DNA from: Anaerocolumna sp.
Lineage (GTDB): Bacteria > Bacillota > Clostridia > Lachnospirales > Lachnospiraceae
Length of the DNA stretch: 44,291 nt
Reading direction: 5' to 3'
Assembly (NCBI GenBank): GCA_029239975.1
Contig: JARBTX010000028.1
Span: 1-44,291, forward strand
This document shows, one piece after another, positions 8,850 through 25,836 of this stretch; position 1 is the stretch's first letter, and every line of letters begins with the position of its first letter. The notes beneath the pieces were generated by a model, which did not search any database, was not told the origin of the DNA, and saw only the letters and a program-made list of their open reading frames with translations. The translations under genes and the position numbers were made by a program.

Positions 8850-11708
8850 TTACTCTACTCCTATAAACTGTATTCCATCTAAAACCGGTTCATCTTCCAA
8901 TGCTTCTATTAATAGAATTAATTCATTGCTTTCCTTCAAGTAACTCTTTGGTAAATATAATATAGAATCATCTCCACCACGAAACTCTGGACGGATATCT
9001 GACGGAAGCCATAGGCGCCCAATCATCTTACCATTCAATTGTACTAATACTTTTACGTTTTTACCTTTAAGTAATAATTTTAATCCCATTTCCTGTTGTT
9101 TTGTAATCTCAAAGTCTGCACATATTATTGTCACTTCGCCAGGTTCTAAGTTAACGTTAGAAAGCATTGTTAAATCTTCATATTTCTTATCATCAATTAA
9201 AGTTGTATATTCTAATATAGCTCTTTCATCTGCTCCATGACAATTAATATCTGATATTTGTCTTCCTTCATATAATATAACCACAGAATCTTTTGATTCT
9301 TGAATTGTTTTTTGTTCTAGGTAAATAGCCAATTCTATTTCTCTCTTATTACAATACTCATCTAAAGAAACTGCTGCGTTATATGGTTGAATATCTTGTA
9401 CATAATTACCATTTACAAAAACTTTTCCAAATGATTTAAATCCTTTTAATTCAAGCACCATTGCATTACAATTTGGAGATAATTTTATTTTTCTTTTATA
9501 AATTCCCTTTTGTGGTTGCTCTGGATTATTATACGCCGTGAATTTAATAATAGAATTATATTTATCTTTTTCTGATATTAGGGTTACACACTCACTTGGC
9601 AATTCATCTTTACAATAGCACCAGTATTCTGTAAGATCAGTTATATTTGTAATTAATGCCAATCCTTTTATCCCTTTTTTACTTCTAATATCCATTGCAG
9701 GAAGTCTAGAGTCAGAAAAATTGCTGTGACCCCAAATTTCACATCTTACCCCTAGTTTTAAGCTAGATTCATTCAATATATGTGGTTCCTTTATAAATTT
9801 ATGAGTACCATCTCCGATAATTGTTTTTAAATAACAGTTATTTTTATATAAATGAATAATATCCATTCCATTATAAATCATATAACCCAATGCACGTTCC
9901 TTATCATACAGGTTAACATTTCCTTCATACCAGCCATATCCGCGGTAATATCCCATGTCTTCCATGTTTTTACATTGGTTGAGTTTATTGCTATGATTAC
10001 CACATAACCCTTTTCCCATATCAGGTAAAGAGTGTTGTTTCAATTTTAGCTCATGAAATTCTATTACTTTGCTTTCACTTTTATTTACACGCATGTTGGT
10101 TGATAATTCATTTACCTTATTCTCTTGATTATTCCATGGAAATACTTTTGTTTTTAAGCCTTGTACCGCATTTGCACGAGATGTTATGTAAAGATGAATC
10201 TTTTTTCCGTTATTTAATGTTACAACTACATTACCATCTTGTTGCTTATTCTCTTTATAAAGTATAACTAAAGTACCTTCCGTTTCATATTGCATGTTTT
10301 CTACCATAATATCTACAATATTCTGGTTGGTTAAAGCAATTTCTGCCTGATGATTAGAATGTAAAAGTAGATTTAATGTGTCAAATGCAAACTCGGAATA
10401 ACAAATTTCTGCTGTACTATACGCTATTTTACAGCCAAGGTCAAAGTTATCTCGATTAGATAAAGGTAAATCAAAAGGTATAATTGGACACTCTAATGGA
10501 TTAACTTCAAAAGATGTATACACTGGTCTATTTTTTTCATTATATAAAAAATTTATATAACCTATTTTTTCATCTACATTAGCTATTGCTGCAAATTTAC
10601 CACCATTATTACATCGAAGTGTTCGATGAATACCACTTGATAGTTTACAGTCAGCAGATATATTAAGCTCTTGTTCCATTTGACTTACACTTGTACTAAT
10701 TTCTTCCTCAAAACACGTAATTAACCCACTGAATAGGTAAGCTTCATCATACTCTTTCGATACTTCCCCTTGTGGATTTATCATACCATTTAATTGATAA
10801 TCATGAGTCATATAAGTCATCGGACTTCCCCAATTATTAACTGAAGTTGTGAACCCAAAATCAGTCCCACTCACCTGATTATATGGTGCTATAAACTTAG
10901 CACCTGCAATTAATTCTCGTCGTAAAATAAAGTGAAGTGTACTTGTTTCAGTAATGCATAAAGGTAGATCCATCTCACGGAAAGTTTCCAAGTAATGATT
11001 TATTTTATCTTCTAGTGAAATTTCACTCATATCTGGGTAAAGATTTATGGTAGGTATAACCCCATCGACTAATCCACCGGCTCCTTTTATATCACATTGA
11101 CCTGCACATACTACAATCGGTACATTAATTCCTAACTCGATTGCATAATTTCTTAACGTTTGAATATATGGTTCAACCTGCTTACAGTCATAAAAATCTA
11201 ACTCATTTTCTATTTGGACTGCAATAACAGTTCCTTGTTTTCCTAATTGATAATTCGCTATGATAGGCATGATTTTTTCATACCATTTTCTTACATAGGA
11301 TAAATATATTTCGTTATAATCTCTTAATATCAAATTCTCTTTTGTTAACAGGTATGCTGGTAAAGAACCCATGTCCCATTCTGAACATATATAAGGTCCT
11401 GGTCTTGCAATTACCCATAGTTCTAATTCTCTTGCTAATGTAAGAAAATAAATAACATCTTTCTCACCAGAAAAATTCCAATCATCTTCTTCTAATTCGT
11501 GATAATTCCATGGAAAATAAATATCAATACAATTATAACCTGCTGCTTTTACTTTTTCTAAACGATCCTTCCACTCATGACTAGGAATTCTAAAATAAAA
11601 AACAGATGCACACAACACGATTCGTGGCTTATTTTCTATTACTATTCTGTCTGCCAAAAATGTTACCATATTTGAATCTTGATTCTCTGACTGTTTCATA
11701 TCCGCCAC
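8850..11708 (-). CDS. Large divergent GH35 beta-galactosidase-like protein
   Basis: A 952-residue protein with an N-terminal GH35 TIM barrel (about 15-340) and a long beta-rich C-terminal part (about 350-952) probably made of jelly-roll domains. GH35 landmarks are ARPGPYICSEWDMGSLPAYL, acid/base Glu169 in QIENEL, and candidate nucleophile Glu254 in PLCITETS, where canonical enzymes have MEFWIGW-like sequence. It is 200-370 residues longer than usual bacterial GH35 and has no signal peptide, so it should be cytoplasmic. The call uses the GTG at 11708, 4 nt after AAGGAG; the ATG at 11699 is an alternative. No clear terminator or promoter was found. Its substrate is probably a beta-galactoside but the altered active-site surroundings leave this open. 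Confidence 0.8.
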   Translation of the reverse strand: MADMKQSENQDSNMVTFLADRIVIENKPRIVLCASVFYFRIPSHEWKDRLEKVKAAGYNCIDIYFPWNYHELEEDDWNFSGEKDVIYFLTLARELELWVIARPGPYICSEWDMGSLPAYLLTKENLILRDYNEIYLSYVRKWYEKIMPIIANYQLGKQGTVIAVQIENELDFYDCKQVEPYIQTLRNYAIELGINVPIVVCAGQCDIKGAGGLVDGVIPTINLYPDMSEISLEDKINHYLETFREMDLPLCITETSTLHFILRRELIAGAKFIAPYNQVSGTDFGFTTSVNNWGSPMTYMTHDYQLNGMINPQGEVSKEYDEAYLFSGLITCFEEEISTSVSQMEQELNISADCKLSSGIHRTLRCNNGGKFAAIANVDEKIGYINFLYNEKNRPVYTSFEVNPLECPIIPFDLPLSNRDNFDLGCKIAYSTAEICYSEFAFDTLNLLLHSNHQAEIALTNQNIVDIMVENMQYETEGTLVILYKENKQQDGNVVVTLNNGKKIHLYITSRANAVQGLKTKVFPWNNQENKVNELSTNMRVNKSESKVIEFHELKLKQHSLPDMGKGLCGNHSNKLNQCKNMEDMGYYRGYGWYEGNVNLYDKERALGYMIYNGMDIIHLYKNNCYLKTIIGDGTHKFIKEPHILNESSLKLGVRCEIWGHSNFSDSRLPAMDIRSKKGIKGLALITNITDLTEYWCYCKDELPSECVTLISEKDKYNSIIKFTAYNNPEQPQKGIYKRKIKLSPNCNAMVLELKGFKSFGKVFVNGNYVQDIQPYNAAVSLDEYCNKREIELAIYLEQKTIQESKDSVVILYEGRQISDINCHGADERAILEYTTLIDDKKYEDLTMLSNVNLEPGEVTIICADFEITKQQEMGLKLLLKGKNVKVLVQLNGKMIGRLWLPSDIRPEFRGGDDSILYLPKSYLKESNELILLIEALEDEPVLDGIQFIGVE

Positions 11709-12410: not shown

Positions 12411-14045
12411 TTATTTGCCTAAGTATGCTTTATAAGCAGTTAATTGTTCTTGAAGAACTTTATATACTTCATCATATCCAGCATCTTTCATAGCTTTTCT
12501 AAAGTCAGCAACTGCTTGCTCAGGATCACCTGCTTTACCAAATGCAATCGCTGTTACATAGCTACTAAATACATCTGACATATTAGACATATAAGAAGAG
12601 ATTTCATCCGTATTAAATACTAATTGTGAATATGGATAATCAATGGAATAAGATGAATAATCAGCAAAAATCTGATCTTTACCTTCATACCATGTTGCAT
12701 TATCAAGTTCTAAGTTATCATTTCTTCCATACCAGAAGTTAGGGCTATAAGAATCATTTGTTTCATCATAACCTTCTGGACGATCTAATTTACCATCAGA
12801 TGTGATAACATATTGAGTTCCTTCAATACCATAGTTAAATAAACGATAGATTTCTTCATCATTACGTAATAAATCATATACCATTAATGCTCTTTCAGGA
12901 TGTTGAGAAGCAGCACCTACTGCTAATGCACCGTGAGTGATAACTAGATTCATTAAGTTCTTACTTGGTTCAGAGAAAGAGAAGAATTGTACATCAGAAC
13001 CAGGTTGTTTTTCATCCATTTGTGGACGAACTGTTGTGTAATATGTTTGTGTATGATGTTGGTCTGCACCAGTTTGGCCTGCATACATTTCTTCACGAGT
13101 ATCACCAGTGTAGTTAAGAACGTCTTCTCTCCAGTAACCAGCATCGCCCCACTCTTTCATCATCTTAGCAAAGTCAACATATTCTTGACCTTCCATATAT
13201 GGAGAAACAAGTGTAAACATATCATCTTTACTAGCACCAAAGAAAATTGGAACATCTAAGCCATCAATGAATAAATTCTGTGTATTAGATTGGAAGTAAC
13301 CACCTGCAAGCTGTTGACCAAATGCTTGACCACTTGCGGATGCATCCCATGGAATAACATCAGGGAAATTCGCTTTAACACCAGCAAAGTATTGACCTAA
13401 TTCTGTAAAGCTATGAACACCATTTGTTAAACCAAATTGTTTTGCCCAATCTCCACGGTACATAAATCCATGATTTGTCCATTGAGCGTAATTATCTTCA
13501 GGAATTAAGTAAATCTTTCCGTCAAGTTTACACATATTCCAGTGATCTGCAGATACGGATTCCCAAGTTTTTGGAGCATATGTCTTTAACATATCTTCAG
13601 AAAGTTCTAAGGAAGCACCTTTCTTAGAGTTTGGCCATGCATCTAACCAGTCAGTTGCAGTTCCGATTAAATCAATTGTGTTATCACCGGAAGCAAGTAA
13701 TAAGTTGTATTGTGTTTGCCAATCTGCCCATTCTACCCAATATAATTCAAGTTCTGCGTTTACTTTTTCAGTTAATTTCTTATTTAATTCAGCCATTACT
13801 GTTTCTAATTGACCATTTGTTGGTTTATTACCCAATACTACAAACTTAATTGTTACATGCTCTGAAGTGTCAATTGCAGCATCTCCTGTGGATGCACCGT
13901 CATTTGATGCATTGTCTGTTGAACCTTCTGTAGTGTCTTTTGAGTCGTTAGATGTAGTATCCTTGGATTTACCACATGCTGTTAAACTCAACACCATTAC
14001 TAAAACTAGCATTAAACTAAATAACTTCTTCATCGTTTTCCCCAT
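12411..14045 (-). CDS. ABC transporter sugar-binding lipoprotein (LplA/YtcQ type)
   Basis: A 544-residue extracellular solute-binding protein. The signal peptide ends in lipobox LTAC with Cys24 as the lipidation site, followed by a Ser/Asp/Thr/Asn-rich linker (about 25-55). Size and the C-terminal helix region (AVADFRKAMKDAGYDEVYK) fit the large clostridial/Bacillus LplA-like binding proteins that work with LplB and YtcP-type permeases and often bind oligosaccharides. The ATG at 14045 follows AGGAGGAAACAAA; an upstream in-frame ATG at 14069 precedes that site. It is the third gene of the importer operon. No ATPase gene is present, so a shared MsmK/UgpC-type ATPase encoded elsewhere is expected. 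Confidence 0.9.
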   Translation of the reverse strand: MGKTMKKLFSLMLVLVMVLSLTACGKSKDTTSNDSKDTTEGSTDNASNDGASTGDAAIDTSEHVTIKFVVLGNKPTNGQLETVMAELNKKLTEKVNAELELYWVEWADWQTQYNLLLASGDNTIDLIGTATDWLDAWPNSKKGASLELSEDMLKTYAPKTWESVSADHWNMCKLDGKIYLIPEDNYAQWTNHGFMYRGDWAKQFGLTNGVHSFTELGQYFAGVKANFPDVIPWDASASGQAFGQQLAGGYFQSNTQNLFIDGLDVPIFFGASKDDMFTLVSPYMEGQEYVDFAKMMKEWGDAGYWREDVLNYTGDTREEMYAGQTGADQHHTQTYYTTVRPQMDEKQPGSDVQFFSFSEPSKNLMNLVITHGALAVGAASQHPERALMVYDLLRNDEEIYRLFNYGIEGTQYVITSDGKLDRPEGYDETNDSYSPNFWYGRNDNLELDNATWYEGKDQIFADYSSYSIDYPYSQLVFNTDEISSYMSNMSDVFSSYVTAIAFGKAGDPEQAVADFRKAMKDAGYDEVYKVLQEQLTAYKAYLGK

Positions 14046-14118
14046 TTTGTTTCCTCCTATTTTTTTCATTGTTAGCTTCTATGTGCACTTCGTTTCTACG
14101 AAGTTAACATCAACTTAA

Positions 14119-15033
14119 TCATCCTTTTACAGCACCTACTGTGATACCTGCAATAAAGTATTTTTGAACGAATGGATATAGAAAAATAATTGGACCGGTT
14201 GCTACTACTGCAGTTGCCATCTTTAATGTTTCAAGTGGAAGTGATGTAACTGGTACATTAGAGCCTGCAACTGAGTTTCTTAATGATTGAACTTCGTTAA
14301 TAATCTTATATAAATGGTATTGTAACGGTCTAAACTTAACCGATGGTGACAAAAATAACATGGAGTTATACCATTCATTCCAATAAGCTAAAGCTAAAAA
14401 TAAACCGATTGTTGCTAGTGCTGGTTTTAACATTGGTAATATAAGTTTTATGAATATAGTAACATCACCTGCACCATCAATCGTTCCGGATTCTGTTATC
14501 TCAAACGGTATAGATTTGATAAAATTCTTCATTAAGATAATCAACCATGGTGACATTAAAAGTGGTAAAAATACTGCTAAATAGTTATCTTTTAAACCTA
14601 AGTATTTTGAAATTAATAAGTAAAATGGTACCAAACCACCTGAAAATAAAGTTGTAAAATATATGTAGAATGATATTTGATTACGGAATGGAAAATCCTT
14701 TCTCTGTAATGCATATCCAGTCATTGATATGATAAATAAACCAAGTGCGGTACCAGCTCCTGTCATGATAATTGTAACTACATAGGATCCTATTAATTGT
14801 TCTGAATTACGAAATAGTAGATCATAAGCAAAAGTAGTAAAGCCTTTTGGTATTAAAGCAAATCCTGTCTTTGTTATTAATCTCTCTGTACTAAAGGATG
14901 TAGAAATCATTAAGATAAAGGGAACTAAACAGGCTACTGAAAATATAGATATCATGATATAGGCAAACCCTCTAACGATTAGATCAGCTTTATCTAATTT
15001 AATTTTATTTTTATGTGCGGTCCTTGTTTTCAT
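14119..15033 (-). CDS. Carbohydrate ABC transporter permease (YtcP/LplC type)
   Basis: A 304-residue inner-membrane permease with about six transmembrane helices. The coupling loop EITESGTIDGAGDVTIFIKLILPMLKP matches the EAA motif that contacts the ATPase. The C-terminal FLYPFVQKYFIAGITVGAVKG ending is typical of the CUT1 permease family of this LplC/YtcP branch. GGAGGAGA precedes the ATG. It lies 73 bp before the binding-protein gene and 119 bp after the first permease and belongs to the same transcript. Confidence 0.92.
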   Translation of the reverse strand: MKTRTAHKNKIKLDKADLIVRGFAYIMISIFSVACLVPFILMISTSFSTERLITKTGFALIPKGFTTFAYDLLFRNSEQLIGSYVVTIIMTGAGTALGLFIISMTGYALQRKDFPFRNQISFYIYFTTLFSGGLVPFYLLISKYLGLKDNYLAVFLPLLMSPWLIILMKNFIKSIPFEITESGTIDGAGDVTIFIKLILPMLKPALATIGLFLALAYWNEWYNSMLFLSPSVKFRPLQYHLYKIINEVQSLRNSVAGSNVPVTSLPLETLKMATAVVATGPIIFLYPFVQKYFIAGITVGAVKG

Positions 15034-15152: not shown

Positions 15153-16115
15153 TTAGAACAATGCATAATCATTATCAATTTTCTTTGCGATCCAGTTACA
15201 AACCATAACAACGATAAACCCAAATATGGATTGATATAAACCAACTGCACTTGCTTGTGTAAAGTTAAAGTTATTCATCATGGACCTGAATACATAAGTT
15301 TCTATAATATCTGTGGTTGGGAATAACATTTTATTGGATGGCCCAATAATGTTATAAAATAAACCAAAATTACCTTTAATTATGGAACCCATAGAAAATA
15401 AGAGTAATATAACCACGGTTGGTTTTAAATTTGGCAAAATAATGTAGCGAATCTTTTGGAATGCATTCACACCGTCAACTTTTGCTGCTTCTATCATTTC
15501 TGCATCGATACCCATAATTGCTGCAAAGTATACGATAGAACCATAACCAGTTTGCTGCCACAAATGAACTAAAACGATGATAAATGGCCAAACGTGTTTA
15601 TTTGAATACACTTTAATTGGTGTTCCATCAAAAGATCTGATTATACTATTAATAAATCCATAGTCAAAATTTAATAAATTATAAAGGAGTAAACCAACTA
15701 ATACAGCGGAAATAAAGTATGGTAAAAACATAAATGTCTGGGTTACCTTTTTAAAATACTTACTGCGTATCTCATTTAATAAAATCGCCACAAAAATTTG
15801 AAGCGTATTACCAAGTATTATAAAGGCAATATTATATAAAATACTATTTCTCGTTAACATAGTGATTTTACCTGACGTAAATAAGAATTTAAAATTATCA
15901 AATCCTATAAAGTCACTACCAAATATACCCTTTGCATAATTAAAATTCGTAAAAGCTATGTACACACCAGGCATTGGTATATATGAAAAAATAAAGAAAA
16001 ATAAAATAGCTGGTGTACACATTAATAATAGCACCCTATACTTATAAACCTTCTGCCAAAATGTTAGTTGCCTCCCTATTTTTGGATGTTTTGTTCTTCC
16101 TTTTTCCCTCTTCAT
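15153..16115 (-). CDS. Carbohydrate ABC transporter permease (LplB type)
   Basis: A 320-residue membrane permease, partner of the YtcP-type protein downstream. About six transmembrane helices follow a basic N-terminus. The coupling helix region (DAEMIEAAKVDGVNAFQKIRYIILPNLKP) is a clear EAA motif. FIFSYIPMPGVYIAFTNF near residue 41 is a typical LplB-family first helix and loop. GGAGGAG lies upstream of the ATG. It is the first gene of the importer operon, with promoter and two operators in the 452-bp upstream region. Confidence 0.92.
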   Translation of the reverse strand: MKREKGRTKHPKIGRQLTFWQKVYKYRVLLLMCTPAILFFFIFSYIPMPGVYIAFTNFNYAKGIFGSDFIGFDNFKFLFTSGKITMLTRNSILYNIAFIILGNTLQIFVAILLNEIRSKYFKKVTQTFMFLPYFISAVLVGLLLYNLLNFDYGFINSIIRSFDGTPIKVYSNKHVWPFIIVLVHLWQQTGYGSIVYFAAIMGIDAEMIEAAKVDGVNAFQKIRYIILPNLKPTVVILLLFSMGSIIKGNFGLFYNIIGPSNKMLFPTTDIIETYVFRSMMNNFNFTQASAVGLYQSIFGFIVVMVCNWIAKKIDNDYALF

Positions 16116-16157
16116 GCTGCCACTCCTCCATACTTTTTTTATTCAAATTTCATCATT

Positions 16158-16171
16158 TGAAACCGCTTTCA
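16158..16171. promoter_or_regulatory. Second LacI-type operator in the importer leader
   Basis: TGAAACCGCTTTCA, 43 bp upstream of the first permease gene. Its centre is 133 bp from the operator at 16291-16304, so looping between the two is possible. The sequence also satisfies the general CcpA cre consensus. Confidence 0.65.
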
Positions 16172-16290
16172 CGCCATGATAAAAAAATATTTCCCGCTCA
16201 TAACAACTTAGTTTTTCTTCAAATTAACTTGTATTCTTGTATAATGATTTACGAAAACTTTTTTGTATATATTGTCGTATTTTTGAATAA

Positions 16291-16304
16291 TGAAATCGCT
16301 TTCA
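16291..16304. promoter_or_regulatory. LacI-type operator at the importer promoter
   Basis: TGAAATCGCTTTCA begins 7 bp after the -10 box at 16312-16317, covering the predicted transcription start. It is related to the dyads at 18919-18932 and 22776-22789. CcpA binding is an alternative because it also fits a cre site. Confidence 0.7.
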
Positions 16305-16311
16305 TATCATT

Positions 16312-16340
16312 ATTATAACAATTCAAAGTATATCTGTCAA
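16312..16340 (-). promoter_or_regulatory. Consensus sigma-A promoter of the ABC importer operon
   Basis: On the minus strand TTGACA (16340-16335), 17-bp spacer, TATAAT (16317-16312): a perfect match to consensus. Such a strong promoter fits repressor control. The rest of the 16116-16567 gap has no gene; a weak AAGGGG/CCCCTT stem at about 16527-16557 may end the chemoreceptor transcript. Confidence 0.88.
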
Positions 16341-16567
16341 TAAATAATTGAAATATTTTTATAATATTTTACTAAATTGACCGGACGTTTTTAACATCAT
16401 TCACAACATATTGGATAGGATGTTTTAGTAAATGTTCTTACGACTAGGATTTATTGAACAACCTACATTAACTATAAAAAATAATATAAATTAATAGAAT
16501 TGCATTTGCATTGATACCTAATACGAAAGGGGATGTTTTATTACAACAGAGCCCCTTAGGAATACTG

Positions 16568-18766
16568 CTAATCTAAAATAAATTGGCAAATAACATTTTC
16601 TAATTCTTTAGAATTCTCATCTAATTCTTTTGATAGTTCATTCAAAGATTTCACAGCTATTAATTGATCACTGGTAGTTTCATTGACAGAAGTTGATGCT
16701 GCTGCTGTCTGCTGTGAAATTGCTGAGATATTTTCAATTGCTAATAATGTACCTGCCCTGGCTGCATCAATATTCATAATACTATCTGTAATTAATGCAA
16801 CATTATCAATTAATTTCTCAACATTAATATTTAACGATTTTAAAGAATTTTCCGTGTTATTTACTGCTACTTCTTGTTTGGCTACAACACTATCAGCTTC
16901 ATTGGCAATATGAACTGCTTCCTTGGTCTGATATTGTATTTCTTTAATAAGATCTTCTATTTCTTTTACTGCTTTTACAGACTGATCTGCTAATTTTCTT
17001 ATTTCGGCTGCCACTACAGTAAATCCTTTGCCTGCTTCACCAGCTCTTGCAGCTTCAATGGAAGCATTTAATGATAATAAATTTGTTTGCTCTGCAATAC
17101 CATTAATTGTTTCAATAATTCTACTAATAGATTTAGATTTATCTTCTAATACTTCAATGTTATGTACGAATCTTCCAGTAATTTTTGAAGTTTCTCTAGC
17201 TTTTAAATCTAGTTCCTCCATAGATTCCATTCCTTCCGCTACGCTAGTCTTAGTCTCACGTGCAATTTCACTGATTTCTGTGGTTTTACCACTTACTATT
17301 TGAATTTTATTAGATAGATTGTCCATTTGTATTAAGCAGTTCTCAGCATCTTGTGCTTGACTACTAACACCCATTTGAATCTCATCTATGGCATCTGAGA
17401 TTTCTTTCGTAGATACTGTAAATACTTCAGATGACTTCATAACTTCTTTAGACGTCATAGAGACGGACTCACTTTGCACTTTAACTTTTTTTGTCAACGC
17501 CTTCATATTATCTATCATATTGTTAATACCATTTGATAGTATGTAGAATTCATCCTTCTTTTTTACTTTTAACTTTACTGTCAAATTCCCTTTTGCAACC
17601 TTATCAAGTTCTAAAATAATGTATCTAATAATTTGTTGAATTCCTGACGCAACTTTGATACCAACTAAAACTGCAATAAAACATGACAAAAGTACGAGAA
17701 CTATTGTTATATTCTTTATACCGCTAACTTGCTTTAAAATAATTGATTCAGGTATCAAAGCACATACTAAGGCACCTGTATCACCTATTTTTGAACTTAA
17801 AAATAAATATCGTTTCCCTTTAACAACTACATCCTTACTTGTGGTAACGTCTTTGCTTGTTAAAAAACCTGAAAAAAATTCTTTATCGCTAAAAACAGTA
17901 TCTTCCGAAGTTATATCTGAAGTATCAGATAATAACTCTCTTCCATCTTGGGTCACAAATCCAACCATGCTTCCAGAACCAAATTCTAAGTCTTTCATAA
18001 TATCTTGTAAGGTTTTCGTACTGACATCAATTACTAAACATGATTTTGTATCTGCAAAACCACAAACAAATCGAAATGCATATTCGTTTTGCTTTAATTC
18101 GAACTTTTCATCAAGAAAGTTATCACTTCCGATCCAATAGTTAGAATTTGATTTAACAGCTAACTGTTTACCACCATTACTATCTAGAAATTGTACGTAC
18201 ATCTCTTTCTCTGACTTTGTTGCTGTAGTCATAGTAAATACTGAGTTCGATAAAATATGTATATTTTCAATAAATACATCTGAAATTCTTTTTGCCAATA
18301 ACATCTTTTTAATATCTTGCATGACCTCTGTTGATTTTAGTGAATCCGTTGAGTATCTCCCATTAAAATACTGTTTTATATTCTTATCATTAATATATTG
18401 TGTTCCTGTAGCTTCAACCGATTCAAATCCAAAGCGTAAGTATTCACTTGTCATTTTTATTGATTGCAAACTTGAATTTTTGTAATTTTTAATAATTGAG
18501 TCCGATGCTTTATTGTAAGAAACAGCTCCAATTATTATTACAAAACTAACTGGAATCATAAAGGAACCAATTAATTTAACTACGATTCCGCCCTTAATTT
18601 CCTTTGAATCCATTAATTCTTTTCTTTGATTATGATTATGCTTTAACAAATGTAAAAATTTAAAACTTCCCTGTTTAAAAAATTTACGTTCTTTCTTAAC
18701 TTTAACTTCTTTTTTCTTATTAATTCCTGTAAATTGATTTTTAAACTCCAACTTTCTTTTTATCAT
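16568..18766 (-). CDS. Methyl-accepting chemotaxis protein
   Basis: A 732-residue chemoreceptor. A strongly basic cytoplasmic N-terminal extension (about 1-58) precedes TM1 (about 61-84). The periplasm-side sensor region (about 85-345) has Cache-like features ([26 protein letters not shown]). TM2 is about 346-370, then a HAMP domain to about 425, then the signalling domain with the conserved hairpin tip ([20 protein letters not shown]) at about 550-570. GGGAGAG lies 8 nt before the first ATG, so the extension appears genuine, although an internal ATG at residue 52 exists. Its promoter carries the same operator as the importer and GH35, suggesting that it senses the sugar handled by this locus. 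Confidence 0.9.
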
Positions 18767-18918
18767 ATGTTGTCTCTCCCTGTTATATAAAATCTTTTCA
18801 TAAGTTAATAAGTTTTGGGTAACTGATAAAAAGTTCTCTTCTTCACTCCCTTTCCACTACTACAAATTATTTTTTCATGTCTGTTTTTGTTTGTGCATTT
18901 TATATAATATTTCTATTT

Positions 18919-18932
18919 TGTAACCGGTTTCA
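18919..18932. promoter_or_regulatory. LacI-type operator at the chemoreceptor promoter
   Basis: TGTAACCGGTTTCA, a 14-bp dyad starting 8 bp after the -10 box on the minus strand. It is related to the importer and GH35 operators in sequence and placement. Confidence 0.7.
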
Positions 18933-18940
18933 TATATAAA

Positions 18941-18969
18941 AGTATACATTACCACTTAGCAACTGTCAA
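18941..18969 (-). promoter_or_regulatory. Sigma-A promoter of the chemoreceptor gene
   Basis: TTGACA (18969-18964), 17-bp spacer, TATACT (18946-18941) on the minus strand. The leader is about 165 nt. The remainder of the 18767-19104 gap shows no gene. Confidence 0.8.
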
Positions 18970-19104
18970 TAATATTATGTACCTATTTGTGCATTATTTA
19001 GAAATAGGTCTTTTAATAGCTTGATTTAATTAATTATGAGGTAATATTAAATATTGCATTTAGAATATTGCTATTAACAACAATATTATTAACATATATT
19101 TTTA

Positions 19105-19479
19105 TTAGTCCAACGTTATATACTTAATAATTTGAACTTCTTCTATTCCAATGAGAAAAGTTGCTTTATCAGTTGAAATCGTGTTGTGTGCACCAAGAAA
19201 TGGCTTAATTGTAATTTCAACATTTACTTTGGAATCTGGTAATATTGAAATATTATTTATATTCATATCAAACAAATCTATTTGAGCATATTCACCGTAT
19301 CGGTTCTTAACTTCTTTAGATAAATATGGATATAATAGGTTCCTAATTGTACTTATATATTCCTCATTCGTAATTTCATAAATAATTTTATTTGTTGAAG
19401 CAAAAATAGATGAATAATTAAGAGTACTTAGATTAATAATGCTAATTATTAATAATGCTATATACTTTTTAACTTTCAT
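19105..19479 (-). CDS. Small exported protein, DUF3888-like
   Basis: A 124-residue protein with an N-terminal signal peptide (MKVKKYIALLIISIINL, likely cleaved after FAS). The remainder (LYPYLSKEVKNRYGEYAQ, then KPFLGAHNTIS and IIKYITLD) has the order of features I associate with DUF3888 proteins of Bacillus and clostridia, whose function is unknown. AAAGGGG lies about 11 nt upstream of the ATG. It sits between the chemoreceptor and the LacI gene on the same strand. The LacI gene has its own terminator, so it is probably a separate unit; no link to sugar metabolism is evident. Confidence 0.65.
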   Translation of the reverse strand: MKVKKYIALLIISIINLSTLNYSSIFASTNKIIYEITNEEYISTIRNLLYPYLSKEVKNRYGEYAQIDLFDMNINNISILPDSKVNVEITIKPFLGAHNTISTDKATFLIGIEEVQIIKYITLD

Positions 19480-19682
19480 AAATTAAAAACCCCTTTCAAT
19501 TCTTTAAATTTGAACTTAGAGATATGTATTTATCCAAAAAGTTTTTAAATATAGATAATATATACCTATTAGTCTTAATTACTGTAGTATGTTTTATTCT
19601 TAATTGTTTTTCCAATAACCGGCAACTCATACATCTTGTTAAGGTATAAGATAGAAATTAACAACGGAAGAAGGAACATATT

Positions 19683-19723
19683 AAAAAAGGACTAGACAAT
19701 ATAATTGCCTAATCCTCTTTTTT
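19683..19723 (-). terminator. Terminator of the LacI gene
   Basis: AAAAAAGGACTAGACAAT (19683-19700) and ATTGCCTAATCCTCTTTTTT (19704-19723) pair with a few mismatches. On the minus strand the second arm is followed by a T-run. It lies 24 bp after the stop codon. Confidence 0.75.
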
Positions 19724-19746
19724 AAAGCTACATTTCATTTAAAGTG

Positions 19747-20775
19747 TTATAATAAACTCTTACAAGAGCTTCGTTCAGATAAATTCGTTGGAACATATCT
19801 TAATTCTTCTTTTTCAGTTTTGTTAAGAATATTAATTATAGTTTCCATAATCATTTCTGCATATAATCTAAGGTTATAACTAATACATGTTAATTGCGGA
19901 GTTATAATCTCAGAAAAATAAGTATCATCATAACCTACCACGGAAATATCTTCTGGGACACGGATGCTCTTTTCCCTAAGTGCTTTTACTATACCCATAG
20001 CCGCTGATTCATTAATTCCGATAATTGCAGTTGGAAGATTGCCTAACTTAAATAATGTTTGCATACCTTCATACCCACCCTCTATGGAATATTCCGAATC
20101 AATGATATATTCATCTCGAATAGGAATACCTTGATCTTTCAAATAATTTCTTAGTGCTACTCTTTTTTTCATAGTTGGTATAACCGTATCACGTCCGCCC
20201 ACTAATGCTATATCCTTATGTCCAAGCCCAATCAAATAGGATAACAAATCATTCATACCATGAGTTTGTTCTGGAATAATTCTATATACATTAGCACCAA
20301 CTAGCTCACCAGCAGCTACGATTGGGATTTTTGCAGCAACTTTATTCACCAATTCTATATATACAGGGTCTGGTTCTACCTCGTCCACACTACCACCAAC
20401 TTGAATTATGGCATCTACTCTTTTTTCAAGCAAGTTACGTAAATGTCCACTTTCTGAAGAAAGTTCATTAATGGTATTGCATAAAATCATGTTATAGCCA
20501 TACCTTGATGCTTCCATTTCACAATTTACAAAAAGAGTTGAATAAAATGGATTTCTTATGTCAGGAACAATCATTCCTATTGTTTTAGATTCTTGCTTAC
20601 TTAAGCTTCTTGCAAACCCGTTAGGTTCAAAATCATACTTTTTAATAATCTCTTGAACTCGATTTTTCTTTTCTTCACTGACTCTGGCACTATTGGTTAA
20701 AACTCTAGAAACGGTAGCTGGTGATACCCCGGCTTCCTTTGCAATATCATATACTGTAATTGTTCCATTATTCAT
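19747..20775 (-). CDS. LacI/GalR family transcriptional regulator
   Basis: A 342-residue regulator. The helix-turn-helix begins within the first residues (VYDIAKEAGVSPATVSRVL), followed by the hinge (FARSLSKQESKTIGMIVPD) and a periplasmic-binding-protein-like sensor domain (IRNPFYSTLF, VGGRDTVIPTMKKR, VVGYDDTYFSEIITPQLT). The ATG at 20775 follows GAGGAAAATGAA and places the HTH at the N-terminus; the upstream ATG at 20835 would add 20 atypical residues. It is encoded between the chemoreceptor and the GH35 gene, so it is the obvious candidate to bind the TGAAACC-type operators of the locus. The inducer is likely a galactoside breakdown product, by inference only. Confidence 0.9.
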   Translation of the reverse strand: MNNGTITVYDIAKEAGVSPATVSRVLTNSARVSEEKKNRVQEIIKKYDFEPNGFARSLSKQESKTIGMIVPDIRNPFYSTLFVNCEMEASRYGYNMILCNTINELSSESGHLRNLLEKRVDAIIQVGGSVDEVEPDPVYIELVNKVAAKIPIVAAGELVGANVYRIIPEQTHGMNDLLSYLIGLGHKDIALVGGRDTVIPTMKKRVALRNYLKDQGIPIRDEYIIDSEYSIEGGYEGMQTLFKLGNLPTAIIGINESAAMGIVKALREKSIRVPEDISVVGYDDTYFSEIITPQLTCISYNLRLYAEMIMETIINILNKTEKEELRYVPTNLSERSSCKSLL

Positions 20776-20854
20776 TTCATTTTCCTCTACGTCGTAATAT
20801 TTTATTTGGCTTTGTGTCCCGACGTCTTGCTTCATTCGCCTTATACTTAGTTTA

Positions 20855-20883
20855 ATAATATAAAATCATATAAGGATAGTCAA
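20855..20883 (-). promoter_or_regulatory. Sigma-A promoter of the LacI gene
   Basis: TTGACT (20883-20878), 17-bp spacer, TATTAT (20860-20855) on the minus strand. No operator copy is seen next to it, so autoregulation is not evident. Confidence 0.7.
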
Positions 20884-20916
20884 GTGTTAGAATTCTTACA
20901 AATTACTGAATACTTT

Positions 20917-22668
20917 CTAACCTATACATGGTTGATCTATTAATGAGATGGTGTCCGTAACTTTACCTTCTGTTTCAAATAATATGATTGTATTTTTTCC
21001 AACTTTAATCAAAGGACCTGGAATGTATAATCTCTTTTGTGGACCAATCTCCCAAAAGCGTCCAAGGTTAAATCCATTAATAAATGCACAGCCTTTACCC
21101 CAACCCGAAAAATCAAGGTAAGTATCTCCCTGCCTTTCACAATCAAATTCAAATAAATAAAAAGCAGGTGTTCCCTCTGTATAACCCTTTGAAAAGTCAA
21201 CATTAGTAATGTTATCTAATGACAGTGTAAAATGTTCCCAGTTTAAATGCCCGTGATCATTAATTTGTACTCCACCATCAATACCTTTACGTTGTTTTTC
21301 TAACTTAGGTCCAAAATTAACTCTTCCCATATTTTCTACTAAAATATCTATTTTACTGTTTTCAGCTAAATCAATTCCGAGAGATACCTCATTTAATAAT
21401 TCTAGATCATATAACGTTGTAATTAATTTATCATTAATAAAAATCTGCGCTCTATCAGATGCATCCCATAATCTTATCTTCTCAATCTTTTTCTCCTTGG
21501 TAAGATATGATCTGTATAGTATGTAACCATAATTTTGCCCTAACTTTTCCATAGATTTTGGATATGTGCTATTAATTCCTTCTGTTAAATCATTTATTGT
21601 TTCAGATAGACTAACTTTTTCTTTTACTTTTAAATCCCCATAATTCATATCTATTACCTGGGAAGTGTATTCTAACTCTGGGCTATTATTATATTCTTTT
21701 ATAATCTTTTTGAACGCTTCATATTTTGGTGTTATTTTACCACCTTCTGTTAATAAAGAATCATAATCATAAGAAGTAACATCTGGTGTTAACTTATCAT
21801 AATAATTAGATCCATTCATGAAGCCAAAATTAGTTCCGCCATGGAACATATAGATGTTTACATTTCCTACTTGTAAAATATCACTTAGATTCTTCACATT
21901 ATCTGATAAATCCGATGTTTGATGTTTATCACTTCCCCAATAATCAAACCAGCCAATCCAGAATTCCATACACATTAGTGGCCCACCTGATGTATGTTTT
22001 TCTAATATTTCAAATTGTTCCTTGGCTTTTGATCCAAAGTTAGCAGTCGGAAGAACACCTGGAACGCTACCACAGTTAAGAGCATCCCCCCATGGTCCAT
22101 CGGATGTAATCATTGGTACCACGGTTCCATTCTGAATCATAATGTCTTTTAATATTTCTAGATAATTCGTATCATTCCCATAATAACCATATTCATTTTC
22201 TATTTGCATCATAATAATAGGGCCACCATAATTAATTTGCAGTGGTGATAAAATTTTAAATAATTCTTTGTAATAATCTCTAACATGGTTCAAAAATGGC
22301 TCATATGACCCTCTTAATCTCATACCATCTTCTGCCAATAACCAAGCAGGTAAACCACCAAATTCCCATTCTGCACAAATATAAGGAGAAGGCCTTACAA
22401 TTACCCATAACCCGATTTCTTGTGCTAATTCAATATATTCTTTTATATCAAGCATTCCTTCGAAACAGTAAGTACCTTTATGGGGTTCATGCATATTCCA
22501 AGGGATGTATGTTTCCACTGTATTACAACCTAGATTTTTTAGTTTTACTAAGCGGTCACGCCAATATTCTTTCACAATTCGAAAGTAATGCATCCCACCA
22601 GAAATTATCTTTATTTTTTCATCATTTAAGTAAAAATCATCTTTGATATCAAAACGAGATTCAATCAT
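20917..22668 (-). CDS. GH35 beta-galactosidase, canonical length
   Basis: A 583-residue retaining beta-galactosidase with no signal peptide, so intracellular. The TIM barrel has acid/base Glu159 in QIENEYG and nucleophile Glu235 in CMEFWIGWFDYWG. GGTNFGFMNG and PYICAEWEFGGLPAWL are further GH35 signatures. C-terminal jelly-roll domains follow, including the galactose-binding-like end (GWGKGCAFINGFNLGRFW). Length is typical of the BgaC-like group, whose members favour beta-1,3 or terminal galactose in oligosaccharides. A GGGG stretch precedes the ATG. Its promoter and operator at 22776-22825 put it in the same putative LacI regulon as the importer. Confidence 0.93.
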   Translation of the reverse strand: MIESRFDIKDDFYLNDEKIKIISGGMHYFRIVKEYWRDRLVKLKNLGCNTVETYIPWNMHEPHKGTYCFEGMLDIKEYIELAQEIGLWVIVRPSPYICAEWEFGGLPAWLLAEDGMRLRGSYEPFLNHVRDYYKELFKILSPLQINYGGPIIMMQIENEYGYYGNDTNYLEILKDIMIQNGTVVPMITSDGPWGDALNCGSVPGVLPTANFGSKAKEQFEILEKHTSGGPLMCMEFWIGWFDYWGSDKHQTSDLSDNVKNLSDILQVGNVNIYMFHGGTNFGFMNGSNYYDKLTPDVTSYDYDSLLTEGGKITPKYEAFKKIIKEYNNSPELEYTSQVIDMNYGDLKVKEKVSLSETINDLTEGINSTYPKSMEKLGQNYGYILYRSYLTKEKKIEKIRLWDASDRAQIFINDKLITTLYDLELLNEVSLGIDLAENSKIDILVENMGRVNFGPKLEKQRKGIDGGVQINDHGHLNWEHFTLSLDNITNVDFSKGYTEGTPAFYLFEFDCERQGDTYLDFSGWGKGCAFINGFNLGRFWEIGPQKRLYIPGPLIKVGKNTIILFETEGKVTDTISLIDQPCIG

Positions 22669-22775
22669 ATTATATCCCCCTGCAACATTATATTAATTGC
22701 AATTCAAATTTTAAACACCCTAAATCTAATAATACATAGTATTACGATGAAGTAAAAAATCATTTTTTAGATTTA

Positions 22776-22789
22776 TGAAACCAGTTTCA
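22776..22789. promoter_or_regulatory. LacI-type operator at the GH35 promoter
   Basis: TGAAACCAGTTTCA within the perfect 16-bp dyad ATGAAAC-CA-GTTTCAT (22775-22790), beginning 7 bp after the -10 box. Its central CA rather than CG departs from the CcpA cre consensus, favouring a dedicated LacI-type regulator. Confidence 0.75.
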
Positions 22790-22796
22790 TAACGTC

Positions 22797-22825
22797 ATAG
22801 TATCACTCTAAATCCATCATGTCAA
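22797..22825 (-). promoter_or_regulatory. Sigma-A promoter of the GH35 gene
   Basis: TTGACA (22825-22820), 17-bp spacer, TACTAT (22802-22797) on the minus strand. The predicted start lies in the operator. Confidence 0.82.
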
Positions 22826-23050: not shown

Positions 23051-23105
23051 TGAAACCGAATTCATTGTAATATAAACAGTATATCAGACGAACTTTTAAT
23101 GTCAA
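23051..23105 (-). promoter_or_regulatory. Possible second promoter with a degenerate operator
   Basis: On the minus strand TTGACA (23105-23100), 16-bp spacer, TATACT (23083-23078), then an imperfect dyad TGAAACCGAATTCA at 23051-23064, 13 bp after the -10. It would give GH35 a transcript with a leader of about 400 nt. The dyad could instead serve the divergent GH2 gene. No gene is seen in 22826-23050. Confidence 0.45.
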
Positions 23106-23168
23106 TATGGTTAATTTTATTATTTTTCTTAAAAGTAGCTATATTACAAATTTGTTCTTAATCAAACA

Positions 23169-23332: not shown

Positions 23333-23346
23333 AAATGAGGAAAAAC

Positions 23347-25836
23347 ATGAATAACATATTACTTAATACATGGAAGTTTCATTATAACGATTGCCCAGAT
23401 GCATGGTACAAAGGATTTTTAGATGAATCATGGACGAACGTAACCGTTCCGCATGACTGGTCAGTTACAATGCCATTTTCCAAGGAATATTCCAGCGGTA
23501 CAGGTTATCTTGCTGGCGGCATTGGTTGGTATAGAACGAAGTTTCATTTGCCTGAGTCGTTAAAAGGAAAAAAAATATACATAACTTTTGATGGCATTTA
23601 TAAAAATAGTCAAGTGTGGTGTAATAGTTACTATCTTGGTAAACGCCCATTTGGTTATTCCACATTTCGGTATGACATAACAAATCAAGTAACTTTTGGA
23701 GATATACCAAACGTAATAGCAGTTAGAGTAGATCATAAAGATATTTCTGATTCCAGATGGTTTACTGGATCTGGTATTACTAGAAAAGTAACTATTTCTT
23801 CAGAAGAACTTGTACATACTGTATTTCAAGGAACCTTTTTTAAAACCCCATCTGTTTCGACAAAAGAAGCTGACATCGAAGTCTCTAGTACTATTATAAA
23901 TGAATCAAACTTTGATGTTGATGTAGTTTTAGAGCATAAACTAATCCTTTCAGGAAACGAAGTAATGACATTAGTAAACACTTGCCATCTTCCTTCTGGT
24001 GTGATGACAACGGTTGATAACAAAGGAGCTTTATTAACTCCAGCTCTTTGGTCTACAGAATCTCCAAATCTATATGAATTACAAACAATCATAACATCAA
24101 AATCGAAAGATAATAGTTTTACTTCTGTAGATATATCCAAGTGCAAAGTAGGAATCCGTAATTTATACTTTGATTCAGATAAAGGCTTTTATTTAAATGG
24201 AGAATCTTTAAAAATAAAAGGGGTTTGTGTACACCACGATGCAGGATGTTTAGGTGCAGCGGTATTACCTGAAGTTTGGCTTCGCAGATTATGTACCCTA
24301 AAAGAAATGGGTTGTAATGCAATTCGTATGAGCCACAATCCACATATGCCAGAACTTTATGACTTATGCGATTCCTTGGGTTTTCTTGTCATGGATGAAG
24401 CCTTTGATGAATGGGAAGGTGCGAAGAATAAATGGTCCACTGGACATAATGTGTATCCACCAAAACATCAAGGATATTTTGAAGATTTCCCTGAATGGCA
24501 CGAAAGAGATTTATCTGATCTCATTAAACGCGATAGGAATCATCCTAGTATTATTATGTGGAGTATCGGTAATGAAATTGATTATCCAAATGACCCATAC
24601 TGCCATCCTTTGTTCACAAGCATGACTGGAAATAATGATAAAAATAAACCTGCAGCGGAAAAGCAATATAATCAGGATAAACCCAATGCAGAGAGATTAT
24701 CTGTCCTTGCAAAGCAATTAACAAAGATTATAAAACAATATGATACAACAAGACCTGTTACTGCTGCTGTTGCATTTCCGGAATTATCGACACATATTGG
24801 TTACATAGACCCTTTCGATGTAGTTGGGTATAACTATAAAGAACAATTCTACGCAGATGATCATAAACGTTTTCCAGAGAAGCCATTCCTTGGAAGTGAA
24901 AATAGTCATTCCTACGAAGCATGGAAAGCTGTTAGAGATAACGATTATATCTCAGGACAATTTTTATGGACTGGAATAGACTATCTTGGAGAAGCACATG
25001 GATGGCCAATCCATGGATCCGGTGCTGGTAATCTAACCTTAGCTGGATATCCTAAGACATCTTATTACCGAAGAAAAAGCTTTTGGTCAGAGAATACGAT
25101 GATTTATCTTGTTACAGCAAGAGCTACCCTAGAAAATGAATCAGAGCAGACCCCTACTGAATGGAAACATATGTATCGAAGTTGGAATTATGTACCTGGA
25201 GAAATGATAGAAATTAGATGTTATACCAATGTTTCAAAGGCAGTACTATTTTGCAATAATAGAAGTTTTGGAGAAAAGCAAAATGATGCTGATACTGGCT
25301 ATATCTCATGGATTATTCCTTTTGAAGCAGGTGAATTAAGTGTAAAAGGTTATGTCAATTCTAACCTAACTAATAATCAGATTGATTATTCAATCGACTC
25401 TGCATCAGATCAAACAAGTTGTTTCGTAAGTGATATGATAAAATCAACTGGAACTTCATGTGCTATTCATTTAAACCTATGGGATAATGAAGCACAGATT
25501 CAAAAACTCTTTAAAAATAATGCTATTAATATCTTAAATAATATAGCACCAAAAGAAACATCTACTCATTTGAAACAGATTGAAGTTACTATAACCGACG
25601 GTTTAGGTAACTGGGTCACCAATGATAATACCATGTTAATGGTAACTTTATCAGGCTCTGGTAAGTTGTTAGGACTTGAAAATGGTGATTTATCTGATAT
25701 AACAGAATATACTGCTGTCTACCGAAGAGCGTATGAAGGAAGACTGTTAATCTATGTTGCTGTATCAGCTGAGTCCACGGCTACTACTCTTACTGTGCGT
25801 GGTGCTGGGTTAAAAACTGCAATCTTAGAATTGTAG
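23347..25836 (+). CDS. GH2 beta-galactosidase
   Basis: An 829-residue GH2 enzyme with the usual order: sugar-binding jelly roll (about 1-180), immunoglobulin-like domain (about 180-285), TIM barrel (about 285-600) and C-terminal beta domains. GH2 motifs are IRMSHNPHMPELYDLCDSLGF, acid/base Glu410 in SIGNEID and nucleophile Glu518 in LGSENSHS. WTGIDYLGE is a further barrel marker. There is no signal peptide. The ATG at 23347 follows GAGGAAAAAC; an ATG at 23335 overlaps the ribosome binding site. It diverges from GH35 and probably acts on imported beta-galactosides; beta-glucuronidase activity is the main alternative within GH2. It ends 2 bp from the convergent AraC gene. Confidence 0.9.
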   Translation: MNNILLNTWKFHYNDCPDAWYKGFLDESWTNVTVPHDWSVTMPFSKEYSSGTGYLAGGIGWYRTKFHLPESLKGKKIYITFDGIYKNSQVWCNSYYLGKRPFGYSTFRYDITNQVTFGDIPNVIAVRVDHKDISDSRWFTGSGITRKVTISSEELVHTVFQGTFFKTPSVSTKEADIEVSSTIINESNFDVDVVLEHKLILSGNEVMTLVNTCHLPSGVMTTVDNKGALLTPALWSTESPNLYELQTIITSKSKDNSFTSVDISKCKVGIRNLYFDSDKGFYLNGESLKIKGVCVHHDAGCLGAAVLPEVWLRRLCTLKEMGCNAIRMSHNPHMPELYDLCDSLGFLVMDEAFDEWEGAKNKWSTGHNVYPPKHQGYFEDFPEWHERDLSDLIKRDRNHPSIIMWSIGNEIDYPNDPYCHPLFTSMTGNNDKNKPAAEKQYNQDKPNAERLSVLAKQLTKIIKQYDTTRPVTAAVAFPELSTHIGYIDPFDVVGYNYKEQFYADDHKRFPEKPFLGSENSHSYEAWKAVRDNDYISGQFLWTGIDYLGEAHGWPIHGSGAGNLTLAGYPKTSYYRRKSFWSENTMIYLVTARATLENESEQTPTEWKHMYRSWNYVPGEMIEIRCYTNVSKAVLFCNNRSFGEKQNDADTGYISWIIPFEAGELSVKGYVNSNLTNNQIDYSIDSASDQTSCFVSDMIKSTGTSCAIHLNLWDNEAQIQKLFKNNAINILNNIAPKETSTHLKQIEVTITDGLGNWVTNDNTMLMVTLSGSGKLLGLENGDLSDITEYTAVYRRAYEGRLLIYVAVSAESTATTLTVRGAGLKTAILEL

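Follow-up and report, generated by a model that had tools for sequence, protein, structure and literature searches.

According to the available part of PMC4052901, the binding sites of LacI-family regulators are for the most part even palindromes centred on CG, and some 90% of these regulators act locally. Elsewhere, a chemoreceptor is an auxiliary part of the N-acetylglucosamine pathway of Shewanella, which has a LacI-family regulator (mcpNag and NagR; PMC2996990, available part), and adjacent LacI-type, methyl-accepting chemotaxis protein (MCP), ABC-transporter and glycoside hydrolase (GH) genes are reported from the biogas-digester fosmid FC1 (PMC4466528, available part). The locus described here lies on contig JARBTX010000028.1 of Anaerocolumna sp., a 44,291-nucleotide stretch that is called the window below (contig C178 of assembly GCA_029239975.1, our G000; 4.8 Mb in 180 contigs, 92% complete and 6.5% contaminated). 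Its minus strand carries an importer (two permeases and a DUF3502 lipoprotein), a chemoreceptor, a small DUF3888 protein, a LacI-family protein and a GH35 enzyme, beyond which follow a GH2 gene on the plus strand and then an AraC-family gene. The evidence points, with a probability of roughly 85%, to a local sugar regulon in which the LacI-family protein would repress the importer, chemoreceptor and GH35 genes, and probably GH2 as well, through 14-bp dyads.

With the local regulons of PMC4052901 the locus shares a LacI gene beside its targets, an even palindrome, importer and glycoside hydrolase targets, and the CG centre (in four of the five sites here), but unlike the regulons in the available part of that source it has two conserved importer operators, one CA-centred site, a chemoreceptor target and no self-regulation seen in G000; the word chemotaxis is absent from the main text of that source, as far as available. 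The Shewanella system differs in phylum, sugar and transporter, and is likened by description, not by sequence, and fosmid FC1 differs in being a GH5, GH8, GH9 and GH2 lignocellulose cluster with no operators described in the part available. The CcpA/cre system of Firmicutes has a similar operator word, but here no CcpA equivalog and no genome-wide cre population were found. The features are as follows (dyads are given without strand).

12411–14069, minus strand: solute-binding lipoprotein of the importer, with a DUF3502 C-terminal domain (PF12010); distant solved relatives 5swa, 5mlt and 5suo
14119–15033, minus strand: importer permease (BPD_transp_1), identity 64–86% in 12 relatives
15153–16115, minus strand: importer permease (BPD_transp_1), gene 1 of the importer operon, identity 59–82% in 12 relatives
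16158–16171: predicted operator 2 of the importer, TGAAACCGCTTTCA, located 133 bp downstream of operator 1; all 12 relatives likewise have a second dyad
16291–16304: predicted first importer operator, TGAAATCGCTTTCA, 7 bp past the -10
16312–16340, minus strand: importer promoter TTGACA-17-TATAAT, promoter scan 12/12
16568–18766, minus strand: methyl-accepting chemotaxis receptor, 732 aa, with dCache-like sensor, HAMP and MCP signal domain
18919–18932: predicted chemoreceptor operator, TGTAACCGGTTTCA, 8 bp past the -10
18941–18969, minus strand: chemoreceptor promoter TTGACA-17-TATACT, promoter scan 11/12
19747–20835, minus strand: LacI-family regulator, 362 aa, candidate repressor for all sites; below the CcpA equivalog cut-off
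20917–22668, minus strand: GH35 beta-galactosidase, 583 aa; nearest solved structure 4e8c
22776–22789: predicted GH35 operator, TGAAACCAGTTTCA, with centre CA instead of CG, 7 bp past the -10
22797–22825, minus strand: GH35 promoter TTGACA-17-TACTAT, promoter scan 10/12
23051–23064: fifth dyad, TGAAACCGAATTCA, upstream of GH2; all 14 letters are identical upstream of GH2 in two relatives (G005 and G013)
23335–25836, plus strand: GH2 glycoside hydrolase, 833 aa, probable additional regulon member

An earlier note on this DNA had described three minus-strand promoters with TTGACA, an exact 17-bp spacer and a good -10, each followed 7–8 bp later by a dyad, with the LacI-family gene between the controlled genes and one site (22776) lacking the central CG. 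All of these elements were recovered, with promoter scores of 12, 11 and 10 of 12, offsets of 7 (importer), 8 (chemoreceptor) and 7 bp (GH35), the regulator gene between those of the chemoreceptor and GH35, and CA at the centre of the 22776 site; the inventory of three dyads was right as far as it went, two others (16158–16171 at the importer and 23051–23064 before GH2) having been overlooked. The joint pattern of a promoter (at least 10/12, spacer 17) and a dyad 3–15 bp on with at most two mismatches occurs three times in the window and not once in 60 dinucleotide shuffles, and a looser version four times in the window versus twice across the 60 shuffles combined. Chance was rejected as the cause of the combined pattern on this count (0/60).

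The arrangement recurs in relatives, which were sought among 14 other genomes of the genus and, at E 1e-75, among 298 other genomes of the family (9 family matches besides G000). In 12 of them (G003, G004, G005, G006 and G010–G013 of the genus, and G020, G157, G179 and G220 of other genera), an ortholog of the regulator, 40–59% identical over nearly its full length, adjoins orthologous importer permeases; the G006 ortholog consists of two partial pieces at contig ends (72% and 89%). Five further genomes (G127, G186, G192, G249 and G277) were left uncounted, orthologous importer permeases being absent beside the regulator in the stretch fetched, or distant only. For most genomes of the genus the stretches reached about 15 kb to either side, and elsewhere they spanned at most 18 kb in total, with contig ends cutting those of G006, G010 and G020. 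All 12 relatives have at least two dyads upstream of the importer (at most two mismatches to the palindrome or at most one to its degenerate form), and in 11 of them the promoter-proximal one starts 7 bp past the -10, the distance in G012 being 5 bp. The spacer of the importer promoter is 17 bp in nine relatives, 16 in G179 and 18 in G020 and G220, the promoter of G220 being weak (9 of 12), and in G020 and G220 the other importer dyad sits upstream of the promoter, not downstream. The window regulator and the eight orthologs of the genus share the stretch SPATVSR of the recognition helix unchanged. GH35 stands behind the importer genes in most relatives; a separate dyad for it occurs in the window and also in G186, there 9 bp past a TTGACG-18-TAAAAT promoter. 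The dyad upstream of GH2 is letter-identical in the window, G005 and G013, with a related dyad in G011. Palindromic candidate operators are shared by adjacent sugar genes and conserved in relatives, as in a local LacI-family sugar regulon.

The distribution of the dyad across the genome is consistent with few and local targets. The earlier note had proposed a genome search with a matrix built from the dyads, and a matrix made from 19 sites of the relatives, with the window excluded, places all five window dyads in the top six (ranks 1, 2, 4, 5 and 6) of the 253,773 bases (254 kb) of G000 scanned, some stretches of which overlap; rank 3 is a site on contig C140, inside an open reading frame (ORF). 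At up to two mismatches, the word TGAAACCGGTTTCA occurs at 15 places in the 4.8-Mb assembly, five of them within 6.9 kb around the regulator gene, and the places one mismatch from the palindrome number three in the whole assembly, all in the window and including the chemoreceptor site. When one ORF rule was applied to all 15, none of the five window sites but 8 of the 10 others lay inside an ORF of at least 120 aa (Fisher p 0.007; the same at 150 aa and p 0.04 at 200 aa). An initial coding contrast (5/5 window sites intergenic versus 1/10 others, Fisher 0.002) was dropped, since sites and others had been judged by unlike rules. The sole non-window place outside any ORF (L028) has no abutting promoter, the nearest scored one ending 46 bp off. 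Five sites in 6.9 kb, with the other ten chance-like in this 92%-complete assembly, fits the small target set of a local LacI regulon.

Several observations weigh against this interpretation. The reversed control pattern likewise occurs at 15 places, so the ten places outside the window resemble background, and the search word was derived from the window sites themselves, which makes the binomial figure for 5/15 in the window (1.8e-11) partly circular. The coding contrast loses significance once the ORF cut-off is lowered to 90 aa (2/5 window sites versus 9/10 others, p 0.08), because a 101-aa ORF (16013–16318, plus strand) covers both importer dyads; this ORF, antisense to the permease start, is probably spurious. 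The dyads alone are marginal in the window (six places at up to three mismatches versus 2.26 expected, with 1 of 100 shuffles reaching six), and chance is rejected for them only weakly. The stretches of G004, G006, G012 and G157 showed no dyad upstream of GH2, and for the chemoreceptor operator the support comes from a single genome. No operator of the regulator gene itself was found in 20836–20960 (best matrix score -4.7), although several relatives do have an operator at the regulator gene. Finally, the genome holds 15 LacI-type helix-turn-helix (HTH) places, 14 besides that of the regulator, and the recognition helix was extracted for 3 of the 15, so that other LacI proteins are possible binders.

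The adjacent LacI-family protein, which carries a LacI HTH and a periplasmic-binding-like sensor domain (PF00356, PF00532 and PF13377), is nevertheless the best candidate for the regulator of all sites. We infer that its dimer would bind 14-bp dyads near TGAAANCGNTTTCA at the transcription start, and that binding would mean repression rather than activation, RNA polymerase being stopped from firing the three strong promoters of the importer, chemoreceptor and GH35; the importer would carry another operator 133 bp further downstream, and an operator at GH2 is probable. Uptake of a beta-galactoside would then let the sugar or a cleavage product, as presumed inducer, release the repressor, and uptake, hydrolysis and the chemoreceptor would increase together. 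The site at the transcription start, with its base-exact distance from the -10 in relatives, fits steric repression. Helical phasing of the two importer operators was sought in 10 spacings (three identical ones merged, G020 omitted) and rejected (R 0.22, p ~0.6 at 10.5 bp); the second operator being conserved but unphased, looping is not favoured, and a roadblock or extra occupancy is as likely a role for it.

One alternative is catabolite repression, under which the dyads would be cre sites of a global CcpA-like regulator and the local LacI protein would have other targets or share these. In its favour, TGAAATCGCTTTCA and TGAAACCGCTTTCA fit the cre pattern, and of all proteins of the genome it is the local LacI protein that matches the CcpA model best (199.8 bits). 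That score, however, falls below the 442.35-bit equivalog cut-off, which no protein reaches in the 92%-complete assembly, from which such a gene may be missing, and the 22776 site is without the central CG of cre. The earlier note had also considered that the dyads might be cre sites throughout the genome, which they proved not to be: exact places of TGWAANCGNTTWCA number five in 4.8 Mb, three of them in the window, and at up to one mismatch there are 64, fewer than for the reversed control (85). With neither a CcpA equivalog nor a genome-wide cre population, CcpA/cre was rejected as the common cause, and we regard it as very unlikely. The two exact places of TGWAANCGNTTWCA outside the window lie on contig C52, beside another LacI-family gene, and within the C140 ORF. 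The first of these (L117, C52 9750–9763) has TGTAAACGCTTACA 3 bp past a TTGACA-17-TAAAAT promoter, the same promoter-operator design, which perhaps serves a second LacI regulator with a different word. It is extremely unlikely, in our judgement, that the dyads are activator sites or leader-RNA stem-loops instead of repressor operators; they lie at or just past the expected transcription start and hence would be transcribed, but a protein sitting on the transcription start suits repression, and the word is of LacI-family type. A single local LacI-family protein, as the earlier note had proposed, thus keeps its place as the candidate regulator of all sites, given that the dyads co-occur with regulator and importer in 12 other genomes and that CcpA fails; that proposal was incomplete, since it left out GH2, which probably belongs to the regulon, and one of the two importer operators.

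A narrower regulon is a further alternative, in which the LacI protein would control the importer, GH35 and GH2 only, the chemoreceptor dyad would be a chance or relict site, and the receptor would be regulated otherwise. As far as the fetched stretches reach, 11 of the 12 related clusters contain no relative of the receptor, and the chemoreceptor site is not open to footprinting. The nearest relative found (G002, 53%) is located away from sugar genes, its neighbours being tRNA modification, pantothenate kinase, biotin ligase and like genes, and the best match to the regulator in G002 is 34%. Against this, the promoter, offset and word of the chemoreceptor site are of the same kind as at the others, and no more than three places of the assembly, this site included, differ from the palindrome by at most one letter; we therefore consider exclusion of the receptor unlikely and retain it as a predicted member of the LacI-family regulon. 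By eye, a palindrome around AAAACCGGTT was seen downstream of a TTGACT-17-TATAAT promoter at the G002 receptor (L138, ~10029–10042), despite the 34% regulator match.

The receptor is predicted to be a dCache chemoreceptor by the modelled fold of its sensor domain (mean pLDDT 83.7) together with the HAMP and MCPsignal domains found. Of 896 Foldseek matches, the 50 listed include the tandem-CACHE domains of PscC (6mni), McpH (8bmv) and a Roseburia uracil receptor (9hvj), at TMt 0.59–0.69 and TMq 0.41–0.49; no Pfam Cache model was found in the sensor at E 0.001, and a sequence search of it against solved structures gave no match. As ligands, the listed Foldseek matches name amino acids, uric acid, uracil, organic acids, histamine and taurine but no sugar, so that a sugar ligand should not be taken for granted, and it is a guess that the receptor senses the imported sugar. 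Chemotaxis is plausible for this bacterium, whose genome encodes two CheA-type dimerisation domains and has MCP domains at 40 places. Regulon membership offers a hint at the ligand, and computation provides few other hints of this sort for such receptors.

Recent recruitment of the receptor with gain of its own operator is the simplest history. Its gene (GC 0.302; GC at third codon positions, GC3, 0.206) is close in composition to the regulator and GH35 genes (GC 0.341 and 0.324; GC3 0.229 and 0.228), which gives no sign of a chimeric contig. At E 1e-70 the sensor domain was found in none of the 298 other family genomes, which were evenly sampled, looser relatives including that of G179 missing the threshold. 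G004 and G012 have receptors 7–9 kb from the regulator that match in the signalling half only (26–28%). In G179, of another genus, a receptor of the same family, 33% identical in the sensor domain, follows GH35 at a distance of 65 bp without an intervening dyad, and is probably transcribed together with GH35, though the gap holds a run of T; for that genus the link covers one genome, G179 itself. It is possible, though doubtful, that one beta-galactoside regulon in Lachnospiraceae captured a dCache receptor twice independently, with its own operator here and behind GH35 in G179, as a sensor of the importer's glycan or of the loaded binding protein; if true, such a double capture would represent a receptor–importer pairing for a plant or host beta-galactoside. 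In a tree of 46 rows, from which L170 and L195 were left out because they were too short or not given, the window and G179 receptors are not sisters, the G179 branch being long and its placement unsure. Structure alignment A1 covered 36 of the 46 sensor domains found. A general pairing of the receptor subfamily with CUT1-type importers in the genus is not supported: a permease lies within 8 kb at 11 of 46 receptor loci versus 2 of 20 other receptors (Fisher p 0.31). The 46 loci are what is left of the 48 non-window rows once a weak row and an extra fragment of one gene are removed, the 20 comparison receptors were hand-picked before their neighbours were viewed, and contig ends cut 6/46 and 1/20. 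Noted post hoc, close receptor relatives in four genomes of the genus (L141, L142, L159 and L161) lie ~2.4–2.6 kb behind an importer permease on the same strand.

For LacI regulators, local regulons are the rule, and a chemoreceptor with a LacI-regulated sugar pathway is already recorded in Shewanella (PMC4052901 and PMC2996990, available parts), so that the regulatory logic is ordinary. Literature searches for chemoreceptors under LacI-type sugar regulators, both broad and aimed at clostridia or Shewanella, listed nothing on point, Shewanella mcpNag/NagR (PMC2996990) being the precedent. What the locus adds is a set of predicted operators, backed by genome-wide and comparative evidence, for a LacI-family regulator of which the papers found give no description. 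As to the sugar, the nearest structure to the GH35 enzyme (4e8c, E 2e-176) is that of the pneumococcal GH35, which prefers Gal-beta-1,3-GlcNAc. The importer's binding protein is only distantly like its solved relatives, and the safest statement is that the substrate of the regulon would be a beta-galactoside. No importer ATPase was found among the window proteins scanned, and it is assumed to be shared and encoded elsewhere. A second, longer GH35 protein (952 aa) lies past the importer genes at 8850–11708, with no dyad (at most three mismatches) nearby.

The region between GH35 and GH2 holds further elements. A minus-strand TTGACA-16-TATACT promoter (23078–23105), 13 bp before the fifth dyad and directed at GH35, may be an additional promoter of that gene. 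The dyad identical to 23051–23064 in G005 and G013 may instead, by eye, overlap the -35 region of GH2. Upstream of GH2 (~23140–23160), there is also a conserved word resembling AGTCGCTAWWTTACAA, which is present in G004, G005, G011, G012 and G013 and weaker in G157, and is perhaps a site of the neighbouring AraC-family protein.

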